Source: Paenisporosarcina sp. FSL H8-0542 (GTDB taxonomy: Bacteria; Bacillota; Bacilli; Bacillales_A; Planococcaceae). From it: 64,000 nucleotides of DNA. Positions 12,509 to 46,552 of this stretch are shown piece by piece (positions within the stretch are counted from its first letter, which is position 1; the number at the start of each line of letters is the position of its first letter). The translations under genes and the position numbers were made by a program. Under the pieces are notes generated by a model. That model was not told where the DNA came from, did no database searches, and saw only the letters and a list, made by a program, of their open reading frames with translations. Location of the stretch: NCBI RefSeq assembly GCF_038632915.1, contig NZ_CP152050.1, positions 1,519,001 through 1,583,000 of the forward strand, read 5' to 3'.

Positions 12509-13069
12509 ATGATTTCTGTAAATGATTTTAAAACTGGTTTAACAATTGAAGTAGATGGTGGTATTTGGCGCGTACTTGATTTCCAACACGTGAAACCAGG
12601 TAAAGGTGCAGCGTTTGTTCGTTCTAAACTACGCAACATTCGTACAGGTGCAGTGAATGAAAAAACATTCCGTGCTGGAGAAAAAGTGGAGAAAGCTCAA
12701 ATTGATAACCGCAAAATGCAGTATCTTTACGCAAATGGTGATACTCATAATTTCATGGATACTGACTCGTATGAACAAATTGAACTTGATTCAAAACAAA
12801 TCGAGTACGAATTGAAATTTCTTCGTGAAAACATGGAAGTGCATATCATGCAATACCAAGGGGAAACGTTAGGCGTAGAATTGCCGAATACGGTTGTTTT
12901 GGAAGTTACTGAAACAGAACCTGGTATTAAAGGTGATACAGCTAGTGGCGGAACGAAACCTGCAATTTTGGAAACTGGATTATCAGTTCAAGTTCCTTTC
13001 TTCATCAACCAAGGTGATAAACTGATCATCAACACATCTGAAGCGGCTTACGTTTCAAGAGCACAATAA
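12509..13069 (+). CDS. efp: translation elongation factor P
   Basis: A 186-residue three-domain protein that enters the ribosomal E site and speeds peptide bonds at proline runs. The tip loop reads VKPGKGAAF with lysine at residue 32, the position that Bacillus modifies with a 5-aminopentanol group. The C-terminal domain shows the family's [11 protein letters not shown] and PFFINQGD signatures. TTTTGGAGG lies before the ATG. It closes the yqhR-aroQ-yqhT-efp group; a copy of the dispersed repeat begins 5 bases after its stop. Confidence 0.97.
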
Positions 13070-13073
13070 TTAG

Positions 13074-13139
13074 AAAAGTGTAAAGTGCCACTCTAGCCTG
13101 ACGCCGGCGTGGAGGGAAGGTTTCCTTTGCGACGAGTAA
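13074..13139 (+). repeat. dispersed intergenic repeat, copy A
   Basis: It begins AAAAGTGTAAAG just after the efp stop and continues through ACGCCGGCGT and ends with TTTCCTTTGCGACGAGTAA. The same modules occur at 46409 (same strand), at 16061 (opposite strand) and, more diverged, at 40264 (opposite strand). This copy is the shortest and lacks the CCGCAGGAGCA extension. Confidence 0.7.
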
Positions 13140-13173
13140 AATTTATTGCTTACCTAAATAATGAATAAAAAAT

Positions 13174-13213
13174 AAAGTTGCCAATTGCACCTAGTGCTAT
13201 TGGCAACTTTTTT
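13174..13213 (+). terminator. terminator between efp and spoIIIAC
   Basis: AAAGTTGCCAAT and ATTGGCAACTTT form a perfect 12-bp stem followed by TTTTT. It separates the efp operon from the spoIIIA genes. Confidence 0.9.
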
Positions 13214-13242
13214 TCATGTCTCAGCTCCTTTTTGCATACGAT
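13213..13242 (+). promoter_or_regulatory. candidate sigma-E promoter of the spoIIIA operon
   Basis: TTCATGTC, 14 bases, CATACGAT. The -10 differs from the sigma-E consensus CATACAAT at one base; the -35 is a partial match; the spacing is typical. spoIIIA is a sigma-E operon in B. subtilis. Here the promoter precedes spoIIIAC directly. Confidence 0.5.
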
Positions 13243-13274
13243 GAATAGACAGAGGAGGGGACAAGTCGGAATTT

Positions 13275-13475
13275 ATGGATGTAATTCGAGTGGCAGGAAT
13301 CGGATTGATTCTTGCATTGTTACACCTTTTCTTTGAACAGACGGGGAAAAAAGAATTTTCATTCTTTTTATTTGTATTTGGGTATCTGTATATGACCGTG
13401 GAAATGTTACGTTTCCTACGTTTCTTCTTTCAAGAAATCACTACTTTTTTCGAATGGCTTACCATTTCGGTGTAA
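13275..13475 (+). CDS. spoIIIAC: stage III sporulation protein AC
   Basis: A 66-residue membrane protein with two hydrophobic helices. VAGIGLILALLHLFFEQTGKKEFSFFL matches the SpoIIIAC pattern, including the HxxxxQxGKKE core. It is part of the mother-cell half of the feeding-tube channel that links mother cell and forespore. GAGGAGGGG lies 14 bases before the ATG, a rather long spacing. In other spore formers spoIIIAA and spoIIIAB precede this gene; here the preceding 205 bases hold only a repeat, a terminator and a promoter. Confidence 0.88.
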   Translation: MDVIRVAGIGLILALLHLFFEQTGKKEFSFFLFVFGYLYMTVEMLRFLRFFFQEITTFFEWLTISV

Positions 13476-13478
13476 GTC

Positions 13479-13856
13479 ATGCAAATGATCCTGGTAACGA
13501 TAGTAATCATATTTCTGATGTTGTTGCTTAAACAAATCCTACCGCAATTTACACCTCTACTTTTGAGCTTTTTCTTTTTTATTTTACTCTCGAATATTTT
13601 ATTTCAAACTCTTTTTCCAATCGTAAGAAACGTTCTTGAATCTGCACCTAAGGAAGCGCTCCCAATAGCCAGAGTATTGCTGATTTCTGTATTCGTGACA
13701 TTTATAGGTGAAGCCTTGATTGAATGGTGCCGAAATTTAAATCTGAATACATTTGTTCCCATCATTTCGATAAGTTGTCATGTGTTGATTCTCACCTATT
13801 GGTTGCCTCTCATTCAGCAAATGTTTAACACGCTGACGCGGCTATTGATCGAATAA
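13479..13856 (+). CDS. spoIIIAD: stage III sporulation protein AD
   Basis: A 125-residue membrane protein, slightly shorter than the 133 residues of the B. subtilis protein. Four hydrophobic helices are visible, with KQILPQFTPLLLSFFFFILLS near the N-terminus and VTFIGEALIEWCRNLN in the middle, typical SpoIIIAD motifs. It lies 3 bases after spoIIIAC. It belongs to the mother-cell SpoIIIA complex needed for late forespore gene expression. Confidence 0.88.
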   Translation: MQMILVTIVIIFLMLLLKQILPQFTPLLLSFFFFILLSNILFQTLFPIVRNVLESAPKEALPIARVLLISVFVTFIGEALIEWCRNLNLNTFVPIISISCHVLILTYWLPLIQQMFNTLTRLLIE

Positions 13857-13884
13857 TATAGGTGTAAAAGAGGTGAGAAGGTTC

Positions 13885-14787
13885 ATGCTTGAACCCTTGT
13901 ATGCCTATTTTTTTGGTGTAACCCGATACTTTATCGTACTGCTGATCGCTATTGTTTTTGCGATGATCATCGATATTTTATTTCCTGCAGCCAAACGATG
14001 GACAAGGTTATCCCTGTTTTGTATTGCTGTCCTGTATACATTGACGCCTGCCATTGATGCGATGCATATTATGCAGCAATTTGCGCGACAGATGGTGACG
14101 GTTTTTATGAGTGTCTACCCCGTGTTGACAGCGGGCTTGTTGATGAATAGTGGAACGATGGCATTTTCAATTTGGAACCCTGCGCTCTATGTATTTATTC
14201 AATTTACAGTGGTGCTGACCGAAAGAATCCTTATTCCATTACTTATGACCACCATATTGCTGGACTTCATTAGTCGCTTTCATCCGGCTACCCCATTTTC
14301 AAAACTGACCGATATTATTCGCACTTCTTTACTAAGTATCGTTTCAGCAGTAGTCGTCATTTATAGTTTTTTCATTTCGGTGCAAGGGTTTATTTCTTGG
14401 AATATCTCAAGTGCTGTTACGGAGCCCATCAAAAAAATCATTCAGCAAAACATCCCGTTTGTTGGTTCTTTTTTTTCTGAGAGTCTTAGTACATTTACTC
14501 GATTTTCTTCTTCAATCACTTCGATTACTGGCGGTGGCATTGCCATCACAATCCTACTGGTTGTGTTGATCCCTACTTTGAAAACCATCAGTATCGCGTT
14601 TTGCTATCGAGTAGTGGCTGCCATTATTGAACCATTCGGACCAGAGGATCTGGCCAGTTTTCTTGATGATATCGGAAAGTCGATTTTCGTTTTAAGTATC
14701 TTGTCATTTCTTATTGCCTTTGCGTTTTTCTATACAGCCATTTTCATTGTGATATTAGTAAAATTCTCCATGATGATGAGGGGTTAA
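13885..14787 (+). CDS. spoIIIAE: stage III sporulation protein AE, short form
   Basis: A 300-residue multi-helix membrane protein. The core motifs GLLMNSGTMAF, a Leu-Pro-free helix at residues 115-130 and the C-terminal PFGPEDLASFLDDIGKSIFVL identify SpoIIIAE. The B. subtilis protein is about 399 residues with a signal peptide and a soluble N-terminal segment; that first part, near 90 residues, is absent here. I chose ATG 13885 with AGAGGTGAG 8-9 bases upstream; GTG 13873 would add four residues. The short N-terminus parallels the shortening of its neighbours. Confidence 0.85.
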   Translation: MLEPLYAYFFGVTRYFIVLLIAIVFAMIIDILFPAAKRWTRLSLFCIAVLYTLTPAIDAMHIMQQFARQMVTVFMSVYPVLTAGLLMNSGTMAFSIWNPALYVFIQFTVVLTERILIPLLMTTILLDFISRFHPATPFSKLTDIIRTSLLSIVSAVVVIYSFFISVQGFISWNISSAVTEPIKKIIQQNIPFVGSFFSESLSTFTRFSSSITSITGGGIAITILLVVLIPTLKTISIAFCYRVVAAIIEPFGPEDLASFLDDIGKSIFVLSILSFLIAFAFFYTAIFIVILVKFSMMMRG

Positions 14788-14789
14788 TG

Positions 14790-14951
14790 ATGGCTGAATG
14801 GTTAAAGGGATTAATGTTCATTATTCTGCTGAGTGAAGTTCTTCAGGCTATCTTCCAGAAGTCTGATTCAAATGAAAAGATAGAAGAATATACGAAGCTG
14901 GGACTTGCCATGTACATGTTATTGTTTATCTCTTCTTTTTTCTATGAATAG
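14790..14951 (+). CDS. spoIIIAF: stage III sporulation protein AF, membrane part only
   Basis: A 53-residue protein of two helices: AEWLKGLMFIILLSEVLQAIF and then EYTKLGLAMYMLLFISSFFY. The WL..I, then LxxxF.KS..x(K)Y.KL pattern matches the first 55 residues of SpoIIIAF, which in B. subtilis is about 206 residues with a large extracytoplasmic domain. That domain is wholly missing, with only 56 bases before the next gene. GAGGGG ends 6 bases before this ATG; ATG 14787, overlapping the previous stop, is the alternative. Too short for most gene callers. Confidence 0.65.
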   Translation: MAEWLKGLMFIILLSEVLQAIFQKSDSNEKIEEYTKLGLAMYMLLFISSFFYE

Positions 14952-15007
14952 TTGAGGAATGCTTGTCATATAGTTTATCAAATGCCTGTCTCACTTAAGA
15001 GAGGAGC

Positions 15008-15448
15008 GTGATTCCATCCATTAAAACGAATCGAATGAAAAGCGGGATCCTGCTCGCGAGTCTCTTGGTATTCATGGTGTTTTTCTTACTGAATGAATCC
15101 ATTTTCACCAAGCAACCTAACACATCCAGTCAGTCACAAGATGCAGTAACGCTGGAACACTCATTGAAAACGGCATTGGAAAAAATGGCTGGGGTAGGTG
15201 AAGTCGAATTATTTTTTTACACAGGCATGAACGAGCCTCAACAAACAGTTACGGAAAAACCTAGCTTTGCCTTGTTTGATCAGACAACCAATGAGCAAAA
15301 AACTATTCAATCAGTATTGGTAGTAGCCACTGGAGCAGATCAAGCAAAAACCAGAATTATGTTAAAAGAATACTTAGCAGCAGTATTATTACTGCCAGAA
15401 CATCGAATTGTCGTCGTCCCGATGGATGAGAAAGGGGTTTCTAAATGA
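15008..15448 (+). CDS. spoIIIAG: stage III sporulation protein AG, short form
   Basis: A 146-residue protein with an N-terminal membrane helix (GILLASLLVFMVFFLLN) and the SpoIIIAG ring-building domain: LEKMAGVGEVELFFYTG, then IQSVLVVATGADQAKTRIMLKEYL and PEHRIVVVPM. B. subtilis SpoIIIAG is 229 residues and forms a 30-subunit ring in the intermembrane space; the lost length is mostly the insert that forms the beta-barrel extension. GTG 15008 has GAGAGGAG only one base away; ATG 15035 is an alternative without a site. It overlaps spoIIIAH by ATGA. Confidence 0.8.
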   Translation: MIPSIKTNRMKSGILLASLLVFMVFFLLNESIFTKQPNTSSQSQDAVTLEHSLKTALEKMAGVGEVELFFYTGMNEPQQTVTEKPSFALFDQTTNEQKTIQSVLVVATGADQAKTRIMLKEYLAAVLLLPEHRIVVVPMDEKGVSK

Positions 15449-15987
15449 AAGTCAAAAAACGTACAGTATGGATGCTAACTCTATTAAGTTTGGTAGCAGT
15501 AATTTCGGTGTATTACGTGAACGAACCTAACAATATGCCCTTTGATGGTTTAGCTATTTTCTCAGATGAAGACCTTGATCAAATGAAGGTCGAAGACACA
15601 ACTGAAGATGAATCAGTTACACCAGTATATGCTCAAAGTGCGTTATTTGAAGAAATGAGAATGGAATTACTAAACGAACGCAGTGAGTTAAAAACACAAT
15701 TAACAACACAAATTGCGTCAAACGAAATGTCGGCTGATGAGGTAAATGAAGCTTACTCAACTATTAACGATTTAACAGTACGCGAATCAACGGAAGCAAT
15801 GCTTGAAATGCTCATTCGTTCACTAGGTTACTCAGATGCCTATGTACAGACAGATACAGGAAAAGTAGATGTAACTGTAATCGCTGATGAACTTGGAAAA
15901 TCACAAGCAAATGAAATTATTCACATCGTAATGAAACAATGGGAAGATGCAAAAAAAGTAACGGTAGCATTCCAACCAGCTTCATAA
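15445..15987 (+). CDS. spoIIIAH: stage III sporulation protein AH
   Basis: A 180-residue protein with an N-terminal anchor helix (VWMLTLLSLVAVISVYYV), a linker, and a C-terminal YscJ/FliF-like ring domain (about residues 90-175). The domain contains ESTEAMLEMLIRSLGYSDAYVQ and VDVTVIADELGKSQANEI. In B. subtilis SpoIIIAH binds forespore SpoIIQ across the two membranes. Its start overlaps the spoIIIAG stop (ATGA). The protein is about 35 residues shorter than in B. subtilis, mainly in the linker. Confidence 0.88.
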   Translation: MKVKKRTVWMLTLLSLVAVISVYYVNEPNNMPFDGLAIFSDEDLDQMKVEDTTEDESVTPVYAQSALFEEMRMELLNERSELKTQLTTQIASNEMSADEVNEAYSTINDLTVRESTEAMLEMLIRSLGYSDAYVQTDTGKVDVTVIADELGKSQANEIIHIVMKQWEDAKKVTVAFQPAS

Positions 15988-15993
15988 TGAACG

Positions 15994-16019
15994 AAAAGGG
16001 CCGATATGGTCCTTTTTTT
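15994..16019 (+). terminator. terminator of the spoIIIA operon
   Basis: AAAGGGCC and GGTCCTTT pair around GATAT with a following T-run. Confidence 0.7.
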
Positions 16020-16060: not shown

Positions 16061-16139
16061 TGCTCCTGCGGTTATTCGTCGCAAAGGAAACCTTGTTTAT
16101 CAACGCCGGTGTCGGACTAAAACGGGCTTCTTCACCTTT
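16061..16139 (-). repeat. dispersed intergenic repeat, copy C (inverted)
   Basis: Read on the minus strand it contains GACACCGGCG, GGTTTCCTTTGCGACGA and TAACCGCAGGAGCA, matching the copy at 46409 almost base for base in these modules. It lies just after the spoIIIA operon in the orientation opposite to the copy after efp, so the operon has inverted copies on both sides. Confidence 0.7.
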
Positions 16140-16248: not shown

Positions 16249-16761
16249 ATGTTAAAAGTACAAGAAATTCGTGAAATTATTAAATTAATTGACCACTCAT
16301 CCATTGATGAGTTTATTTACGAGTCAGAAGGCACGAAAGTTAAACTGAAAAAGAATGGTGTACATGTATCTACTGAAACAGTTGTACCTCAATCAAAACC
16401 AGCGGCACCTGCTGTTGAAGCTCCAGTGGCAGTAGAAGTGAATCCAACACCGGTTGCTCAAACTGTAAAAGAAACAATTGCAAATGTAGAGACGAAAGAA
16501 TCAGCTGTTAATGATGAATCTCTTCTTAAAATTTCTTCACCAATGGTAGGAACTTTCTATCAGTCATCTTCACCGGATACACCGGCATATGTTCAAGTAG
16601 GTGATAAAGTAACAGAAGACGGGATTGTATGTATTGTGGAAGCGATGAAATTATTCAACGAAATCGAAGCAGAAGTGTCTGGCGAGATTGTAGAAATTTT
16701 AGTAAAAGATGGACAACTCGTAGAGTACGGCCAACCTCTGTTCTTAGTAAAAGCGAACTGA
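16249..16761 (+). CDS. accB: biotin carboxyl carrier protein of acetyl-CoA carboxylase
   Basis: A 170-residue carrier that holds biotin and shuttles carboxyl groups between biotin carboxylase and carboxyltransferase. The biotinylated lysine lies in [13 protein letters not shown] in the C-terminal domain, which starts with [21 protein letters not shown]. The middle is a Pro/Ala/Val-rich linker (about residues 45-85). AAGGGGAG precedes the ATG. It is followed 10 bases later by accC. The same AccC/AccB could also serve the YqjD carboxyltransferase encoded at 53.9 kb; that is an inference. Confidence 0.95.
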
Positions 16762-32251: not shown

Positions 32252-33211
32252 ATGCGATGTGTTGCGAATAAAAGGATTGTTACCATGTTTTTGGGATTTT
32301 TGATTCTCTTCCCGGCTCATTCATGGGCTGAGAAAAATGACAATGCTTTAATCCCGCTTGGACAGTCTATTGGTGTGCAATTGAAGTTAGAAAAACCTAC
32401 ATTTGTTCATGATGTACTGATTAATGACAAGTGGTGGTTTAAAAGTGGAGACCAAATAGTCTCATTTAATGAAAATTCCATCGGCTCAATTGACGATTGG
32501 AAAAAAATGAGTAAAAATGCGAATGAAGCACAAGTATCCATTGAAATTCTTCGTGAAAATAAAAGAAAATCTGTATTAGTATCAACAGATCAGTTAGAAA
32601 GTATGCTTCCTTTCATTCGCGATCACACTGAAGGAATTGGTACTATCACATACGTTGACCCAAAAACCCAAGAATATGGTGCATTGGGACATCAAATAGT
32701 GGATCAGCAAATTTCTGAAACACCACCATTTTTAGGTGGATCAATTTTTTTATCAGATATAGCCCGCATACACAAAAGCACTCCCGGTAATCCAGGATAC
32801 AAAATCGCCAAACAGGCATCTGTTCATGTTCAAGCAGGAGACGTGAAAGAAAATACTGTATATGGTGTCTTTGGGGAATTGCTTGAATCGGACTTGCAAA
32901 CTGGAGACGCAATTCCAACGCTAACAGCGAAACATATCAAGAAAGGATATGCTGAGCTATTAACGGCAATCGATGGAAATGACGTTAATTCTTATGATAT
33001 CGAAATCATCAAAGTGGAAGAAACAACATTCCAGTTTATCGTCACTGATAAAGAATTGATTAAAAAGACTGGCGGCATTTTGCAAGGAATGAGCGGATCT
33101 CCGATTATTCAAGATGGAAAATTTGCTGGAGCCATTACACATATGGTGGTGGACAATCCTGTAAAAGGAGCAGCCATCCCAATACAAGAAATGATGAAAA
33201 AACATCCATGA
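32252..33211 (+). CDS. spoIVB: SpoIVB serine peptidase, shorter form
   Basis: A 319-residue S55 peptidase secreted from the forespore that triggers pro-sigma-K processing in the mother cell. It has a signal sequence (IVTMFLGFLILFPAHSWA), a PDZ domain (about residues 30-115: QSIGVQLKLEKP, DKWWFKSGDQIVSFN) and the catalytic part. The equivalents of the B. subtilis triad are H147 (YGALGHQI), D266 (VTDKELIKK) and S281 (LQGMSGSPI). The B. subtilis protein has about 426 residues; the N-terminal spacer is shorter here, but the active site is intact. It lies between recN and spo0A as expected. Confidence 0.93.
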   Translation: MRCVANKRIVTMFLGFLILFPAHSWAEKNDNALIPLGQSIGVQLKLEKPTFVHDVLINDKWWFKSGDQIVSFNENSIGSIDDWKKMSKNANEAQVSIEILRENKRKSVLVSTDQLESMLPFIRDHTEGIGTITYVDPKTQEYGALGHQIVDQQISETPPFLGGSIFLSDIARIHKSTPGNPGYKIAKQASVHVQAGDVKENTVYGVFGELLESDLQTGDAIPTLTAKHIKKGYAELLTAIDGNDVNSYDIEIIKVEETTFQFIVTDKELIKKTGGILQGMSGSPIIQDGKFAGAITHMVVDNPVKGAAIPIQEMMKKHP

Positions 33212-46408: not shown

Positions 46409-46552
46409 AAAAGTGTAAAGCGCAACTCGAGTTCGACACCGGCGCTTGAAAGGTTCCCTTTGCGACGAGTAACCGCAGGAGCAGGACCGAATTGAAAACC
46501 TGTTTTCGCATGAGGTACTGAAGCTTAGGTGCGAACTTGCGCTTGAAACTGG
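46409..46552 (+). repeat. dispersed intergenic repeat, copy B (longest forward copy)
   Basis: It begins AAAAGTGTAAAGCGCAACTC after bkdB, continues with GACACCGGCG, GGTTCCCTTTGCGACGAGTAA and CCGCAGGAGCA, and is followed by about 70 bases of GC-rich tail. The first 66 bases align with the copy after efp, and the middle aligns with the inverted copy after spoIIIAH. Confidence 0.75.

Follow-up and report, generated by a model that had tools for sequence, protein, structure and literature searches.

The window analysed here, a 64,000-nucleotide stretch of Paenisporosarcina sp. FSL H8-0542 (contig NZ_CP152050.1, positions 1,519,001 to 1,583,000; genome of 3.63 Mb in a single contig), carries between efp and accB a reduced spoIIIA operon, which in spore formers encodes the SpoIIIA part of the SpoIIIA-SpoIIQ (A-Q) complex, the feeding-tube channel between the mother cell and the spore forming inside it. 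It consists of spoIIIAC, AD, AE, AF, AG and AH, all in one direction and all with open frames. An initial annotation, made from the letters of the window, had noted that 205 bases separate the efp stop (13069) from the spoIIIAC start (13275), that spoIIIAA and spoIIIAB are missing at the locus, and that the remaining frames are open and in order; coordinates and gene content agree on each point. AC is separated from AD by 3 bases, AF begins 1 base within AE or 2 bases past its end, 56 bases separate AF from AG, and AG and AH overlap by 4 bases. The features of the region are as follows.

12509..13069, + strand: efp, left neighbour; open reading frame, product 96% identical to EFP of Paenisporosarcina indica.
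13176..13214, + strand: terminator-like hairpin AAGTTGCCAA/TTGGCAACTT followed by a T run in the gap between efp and the operon, found by eye.
13214..13242, + strand: sigma-E-like promoter TCATGTC-14-CATACGAT, in a place conserved in family loci.
13275..13475, + strand: spoIIIAC, 66 residues; PF06686 at 26.2 bits, over cut-off; TIGR02848 below cut-off.
13479..13856, + strand: spoIIIAD, 125 residues; PF06686 at 25 bits; match to the Bacillus-type SpoIIIAD profile, probability 92.
13885..14787, + strand: spoIIIAE, 300 residues (304 from GTG 13873), without about 90 N-terminal residues; PF09546 at 109.5 bits and profile alignment.
14787..14951, + strand: mini-spoIIIAF, 54 residues (53 from ATG 14790), membrane part only; family frame, profile match and ratio of nonsynonymous to synonymous substitution rates (dN/dS).
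15008..15448, + strand: spoIIIAG, 146 residues, ring-building domain without the middle insertion; TIGR02830 at 44.2 bits (below cut-off) and alignment with 5wc3.
15445..15987, + strand: spoIIIAH, 180 residues, complete; PF12685 at 87.8 bits; 3uz0 with E 4e-17 and 3tuf with E 8.4e-17.
15993..16017, + strand: terminator-like site past the operon, 11 pairs, from the terminator scan.
16249..16761, + strand: accB, right neighbour; open reading frame and tblastn of AccB on relatives.

The initial annotation had proposed looking for spoIIIAA and spoIIIAB elsewhere in the genome and in relatives, and this search returned no match to either. With every first-look candidate scored, the SpoIIIAA model gave nothing above 29.1 bits in any of 37 Planococcaceae genomes, including our own, whose two weak matches reached 23.5 bits (440-residue frame) and 21.8 bits (351-residue frame). 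Applied to 24 genomes from elsewhere in the class, the same search placed 20 over the cut-off and one close to it (G060, 217 bits), with none in three. SpoIIIAB was absent from all 27 SpoIIIAE-bearing family genomes searched and found in five of five outgroups. Among 299 genomes drawn from the class, 209 gave a match to SpoIIIAE and 190 to SpoIIIAA, the two coinciding in 189. SpoIIIAA accompanied SpoIIIAE in 189 of 190 genomes outside the family versus none of 19 inside it; SpoIIIAE without SpoIIIAA occurred in these 19 and in G358 (a 4.5e-4 match), and SpoIIIAA alone in G161. This draw scored at most eight SpoIIIAA candidates per genome, and the 37-genome search is the stronger test for the family.

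Within the family, SpoIIIAE was found in 89 of 121 genomes and in 13 of 19 genera. Its distribution follows that of SpoIVA, a sporulation gene far from the window, which matched in 92 genomes (the 89 with SpoIIIAE and three with broken pieces) and exceeded its cut-off in 88, the one left of the 89 (G124) being truncated by a contig end; the 32 genomes without SpoIIIAE have no SpoIVA or broken pieces of it. The 89 genomes provide 90 loci (G082 has two), all of them with open frames and with AC, AD, AE, AG and AH. The order of these genes is kept in 89 loci, the exception being G120, where the stretch picked as SpoIIIAD falls away from the operon. Frameshifted operons in relatives, which the initial annotation had named as an outcome that would contradict it, were found at none of the 90 loci. 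We computed dN/dS, another comparison it had proposed, for six of the 13 genera, using only pairs with dS of 0.1-2.5 and leaving out beforehand G001, G002 and G061 (genus g1) and G104 and G120 (g4). Median pairwise values were low, from 0.009 (AC, g4) to 0.288 (AG, g11), with 0.098-0.125 for mini-AF and 0.48 as the largest single pairwise value. In every one of the six genera the medians of AC and AE (0.009-0.080) lie under that of AG, and in four genera no other gene has a lower median than these two. The locus shows neither the broken frames nor the relaxed selection of a decaying one. In genus g2, SpoIVA is broken and SpoIIIAE missing in G008, G068 and G083, both being intact in G026; this pattern reads as recent loss, and the three genomes give a picture of how sporulation is lost within the family.

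SpoIIIAF had been described in the initial annotation as cut to a membrane part of 53 residues, and it indeed measures 53-54 residues in the window versus 164-220 in 37 comparison loci chosen by their tblastn match to SpoIIIAA. The window protein matches no NCBIfam model and no Pfam model either. A frame of 40-59 residues stands at or near the AE stop in all 90 family loci, with a standard start codon in 83 and none in six g5 loci and one g3 locus. A family profile recognized 89 of the 90 loci with E of 2e-11 or lower, the exception, G001 (0.48), having a frame in the same place. This profile was built from these same sequences (15 wrong-stretch rows were removed from the seed by eye, and all 90 loci were then re-searched on trimmed stretches), and the independent test is its comparison with full-length SpoIIIAF. 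The two align over 44 N-terminal columns with probability 90 and E 1.5e-6, whereas the AC, AD, AE, AG and AH profiles gave at most 1%. This match to the SpoIIIAF N-terminus indicates that the membrane part was kept and that the ring-building domain is gone. Judging from these profiles, SpoIIIAF in the family is a conserved remnant of 40-59 residues rather than absent, which is new with respect to the literature. A loose-threshold iterated profile search for mini-AF drifted to SpoIIIAD and was discarded.

SpoIIIAG was also correctly annotated as shortened, with 146 residues in the window versus 189-254 in 36 loci with SpoIIIAA. Its residues 49-70 and 97-140 align with chain positions 50-71 and 131-174 of 5wc3 (E 0.0067 overall and 0.05 for the second piece alone, the first piece not being significant), and the intervening 59 residues are reduced to 26, leaving about 33 missing within the ring domain. 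The missing residues may belong to the beta-barrel or collar. In an alignment with 24 Bacillus-type and two Jeotgalibacillus sequences, the window, P. indica and Edaphobacillus proteins share this gap, and profile comparison gives a probability of 99. SpoIIIAG is reported to form a 30-fold ring with a cylindrical beta-barrel (PMC8092281). The alignments suggest that the family protein keeps the ring-building domain without its middle insertion, another feature new to the literature. Apparent AG breaks in genera g5 and g17 (annotated products of 45-114 residues) were rejected, as they reflect missing standard start codons and not frameshifts. At least six of 11 g5 loci have no ATG, GTG or TTG start and show an apparent ATT where G086 has ATG (e.g. 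L180/G140 and L168/G105); in g17, a standard start near the expected beginning of AG is missing in three genomes (L151, L152, L175).

The remaining proteins are diverged to different degrees. AC and AD lie just above the PF06686 cut-off of 24 bits. The NCBIfam equivalog models fall below theirs for AC (33.6 vs 56.65 bits), AE (82.8 vs 247.45) and AG (cut-off 147.7), and AD matches none. The AE profile alignment starts at window residue 18 versus residue 109 of the 399-residue Bacillus AE, so about 90 N-terminal residues are missing, as first annotated, and the membrane part is retained. Like the P. indica frame, AE most likely starts at ATG 13885 and not at GTG 13873; in some genera its profile matches run through a stop. 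For SpoIIIAH the initial annotation did not hold: described as shorter, it falls with its 180 residues inside the 173-242 range of 34 loci with SpoIIIAA. AH matches one chain of 3tuf and SpoIIQ the other.

Other sporulation genes examined in the same genome are unbroken. SpoIIQ lies between spoIID and a spoIIID-like frame (L219:3910-4572) and matches B. subtilis SpoIIQ in 3tuf with E 9.5e-26, reaching 173.9 bits against NF053738, below the cut-off of 250. In the window itself, Spo0A scores 361 bits, over its cut-off, and SpoIVB 217 bits, below it. SpoIVB (32252-33211) seems N-terminally short, its model being matched only from position 87. Of 27 SpoIIIAE-bearing family genomes, 26 have SpoIID over its cut-off and G007 has it just under. 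A full-length sigma-G relative is present in 15 of 15 such genomes examined, and nothing above 132 bits in six of six family genomes without SpoIIIAE. Its scores of 325-400 bits, compared with a cut-off of 457 that two outgroups pass, indicate that sigma-G has diverged in the family too. Two-domain GerM was found in five of five outgroups and in none of 27 family genomes, 22 of which have no GerM match and five a single weak stretch (over the Pfam cut-off in two). SpoIIM had no match in 21 family genomes and matched in two of two outgroups, one over cut-off.

The sigma-E-like promoter before spoIIIAC, which the initial annotation had also reported, stands above chance as a family feature. At the fixed place, at least 10 of 15 bases matched the consensus in 75 of 84 family loci versus 5.7% of letter shuffles; the match is lower in the other nine. 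This fixed-place test replaced a scan of the whole upstream region of 83 loci (mean best score 10.9 vs 9.6 in shuffles; no usable motif in six). The terminator scan of the region gave five terminator-like sites versus 2.4 expected in shuffles; with its loop limit of 8, it does not list the hairpin at 13176..13214.

On either side of the operon, this genome and G061 of the same species have a copy of a 17-base repeat, the two copies being inverted relative to each other (13119-13135, +; 16076-16092, −), with a further copy in the window at 46452-46468. Allowing up to one mismatch, there are seven copies in our genome and nine in G003, the latter at spacings of 33 or 66 bases, and the repeat is present in five of seven searched genomes of the genus. 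A search for a longer repeat pattern found nothing, and an Rfam scan returned a single sub-threshold miRNA model. In genera g13, g14, g15 and g18, a frame of up to 334-373 residues that by eye resembles nitronate monooxygenase lies between efp and spoIIIAC (e.g. L145, reversed, 1160-2164).

The origin of the reduced form can be placed on a tree of EFP and AccC from 26 named loci, in which Edaphobacillus, Paenisporosarcina and Planococcus form a group with support 0.92 and Jeotgalibacillus joins that group with support 1.0. Both Jeotgalibacillus loci (L106, L107) have all eight spoIIIA genes, an eight-gene operon in the sister genus that is new with respect to the literature, and their AF (164 residues) and AG (189) are the shortest among the 37 loci with SpoIIIAA. 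Of 80 named EFP loci, these 37 have SpoIIIAA, two have the six-gene form (Edaphobacillus and Paenisporosarcina), and in 11, which all belong to Planococcus or Planomicrobium, accB comes next after efp and nothing matches spoIIIA; the other 30 have EFP alone and are uninformative, the locus being cut or the genes moved. A single reduction on the family stem followed by total loss in Planococcus would be the simplest reading.

Taken together, we consider it probable that the operon encodes a working reduced A-Q complex without a dedicated SpoIIIA motor, transport being the less certain step. That sampled spore-gene-bearing members of the family keep the slimmed six-gene form suggests that the channel core can work without the motor. 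As the B. subtilis proteins are understood, what has disappeared is the motor pair together with domains that either sit in the space between the membranes or form rings. The SpoIIIAA-SpoIIIAB pair, the AF ring domain, the AG insertion and the AE N-terminal domain would have been lost on the stem of the family (Planococcaceae/Caryophanaceae), and the parts left over are present in every sampled family genome that kept SpoIVA. Under sigma-E, the mother cell would produce AC, AD, AE and the AF hairpin as a core in the membrane, and AG and AH would assemble into rings between the membranes, where AH would meet SpoIIQ from the forespore. The two membranes would then be bridged, and small molecules may pass by diffusion or membrane gradients, independently of any ATPase. 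The parts kept, a membrane core and the AH-SpoIIQ pair, would accordingly amount to a motor-free conduit or bridge. It is also quite possible, and we propose this tentatively, that the AA-AB motor, AF ring, AG insertion, AE N-terminal domain and GerM constitute one removable module, and that the A-Q core acts passively, as a conduit resembling a gap junction.

Three rival explanations, overlapping in part, stand beside the reduced working complex. An ATPase acting in trans, either a type II-like ATPase upstream or an unrelated sporulation ATPase, could have replaced SpoIIIAA and left the complex motor-driven. The 21.8-bit match to the SpoIIIAA profile (1516442-1516792) lies about 2.2 kb upstream of the window, and the type II-like ATPase there is probably comGA. 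Replacement nevertheless appears quite unlikely, given that SpoIIIAB, the AF ring domain and two-domain GerM were lost too, that comparable weak matches in frames of 340-360 residues also occur in family genomes without SpoIIIAE (G013, G016, G031), and that no ATPase gene is inserted in the operon of the window. The remnant might instead be only a membrane zipper or engulfment ratchet, made of AH-SpoIIQ and an anchor, with no transport; AH and SpoIIQ are the parts that best match a solved complex. We find this unlikely, since the strong constraint on AC and AE is in keeping with a membrane core that has its own function, and since the direct AH-SpoIIQ contact is reported to be dispensable in B. 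subtilis (PMC12720343). Incipient loss of sporulation in this strain, which the initial annotation had kept as its alternative, would account for AE, AF and AG being shorter than in Bacillus-type loci, and losing lineages exist in the family (the three g2 genomes and the 11 Planococcus or Planomicrobium loci). The open six-gene form throughout 13 genera, purifying selection in the six computed, the association of SpoIIIAE with SpoIVA in 89 of 89 genomes and the unbroken state of the other sporulation genes examined in this genome make this highly improbable, and as far as sequence allows we reject it; the selected minimal form that the initial annotation preferred is supported by the same evidence.

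Several observations weigh against a working motor-free complex. An unrelated stand-in ATPase would have escaped our search, which covered SpoIIIAA homologues only, several of the proteins score below family-model cut-offs, and the 44-column match between mini-AF and full AF, with probability 90, is short. B. subtilis sporulation falls to 0.001-0.003% on loss of spoIIIAA, AB, AE, AG or AC-AD, and the reported dispensability of the AH-SpoIIQ contact (PMC12720343) bears on our reading as well; the ATPase motifs of SpoIIIAA are needed in B. subtilis (PMC2703783), and a Walker A change in C. difficile costs about 300-fold (PMC4605598). In the same organism, a Walker B change costs about 3-fold and sigma-G is independent of the complex (PMC4605598). 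The cargo of the A-Q complex and its standing as an active secretion machine are open questions (PMC12251134, PMC12720343). If the core is a passive conduit, Planococcaceae would provide a naturally motor-free form of a complex for which ATPase motifs are considered necessary, with the tiny AF hairpin as a minimal membrane subunit. With the ATPase missing from its spore-gene-bearing members, the family also provides a natural six-gene set for finding the core parts.

The absence of SpoIIIAA, SpoIIIAB, SpoIIIAF and GerM in Planococcaceae is already published. PMC7924749 (2021) lists SpoIIIAA, SpoIIIAB, SpoIIIAF, SpoIIM, SpoIIB and GerM as absent from spore formers of the family, including Paenisporosarcina, and leaves the mechanism to be elucidated; it reports three of the same absences for Erysipelotrichia. 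Most of these absences had been found in Lysinibacillus sphaericus C3-41, whose genome was judged insufficiently reliable (PMC3533761, 2012). Our data share with both the lack of SpoIIIAA, SpoIIIAB, GerM and SpoIIM, but correct the record for SpoIIIAF, scored as absent where a conserved short gene exists, and for SpoIIIAD and SpoIIIAG, on which PMC7924749 is mixed (both included in its Sporosarcina signature, but with AD lacking in five species and AG counted among the missing genes in the discussion). Both are present, shortened or diverged, in 90 of 90 loci here. The literature retrieved with searches aimed at spoIIIA genes in Planococcaceae, as far as its accessible text goes, held no description of a short SpoIIIAF or of a missing SpoIIIAG part. 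Another Jeotgalibacillus is described as lacking AC and AE (PMC7924749), whereas L106 and L107 have both. The Jeotgalibacillus operon, that of the nearest SpoIIIAA-bearing relative in the tree, differs from the window in keeping SpoIIIAA (294 residues), SpoIIIAB (167) and the AG insertion. Compared with the A-Q complex of B. subtilis, the window operon is without the secretion-type ATPase SpoIIIAA, SpoIIIAB and two-domain GerM; its AF is the membrane part without the ring-building domain, AG is without the middle insertion and AE without the N-terminal domain. It shares with the B. subtilis system the position between efp and accB, the gene order, the sigma-E-like promoter, the membrane proteins AC, AD and AE (Pfam matches over cut-off and profile comparison), a homologous AG, and the pair of SpoIIIAH and its partner SpoIIQ, which match chains A and B of 3tuf.

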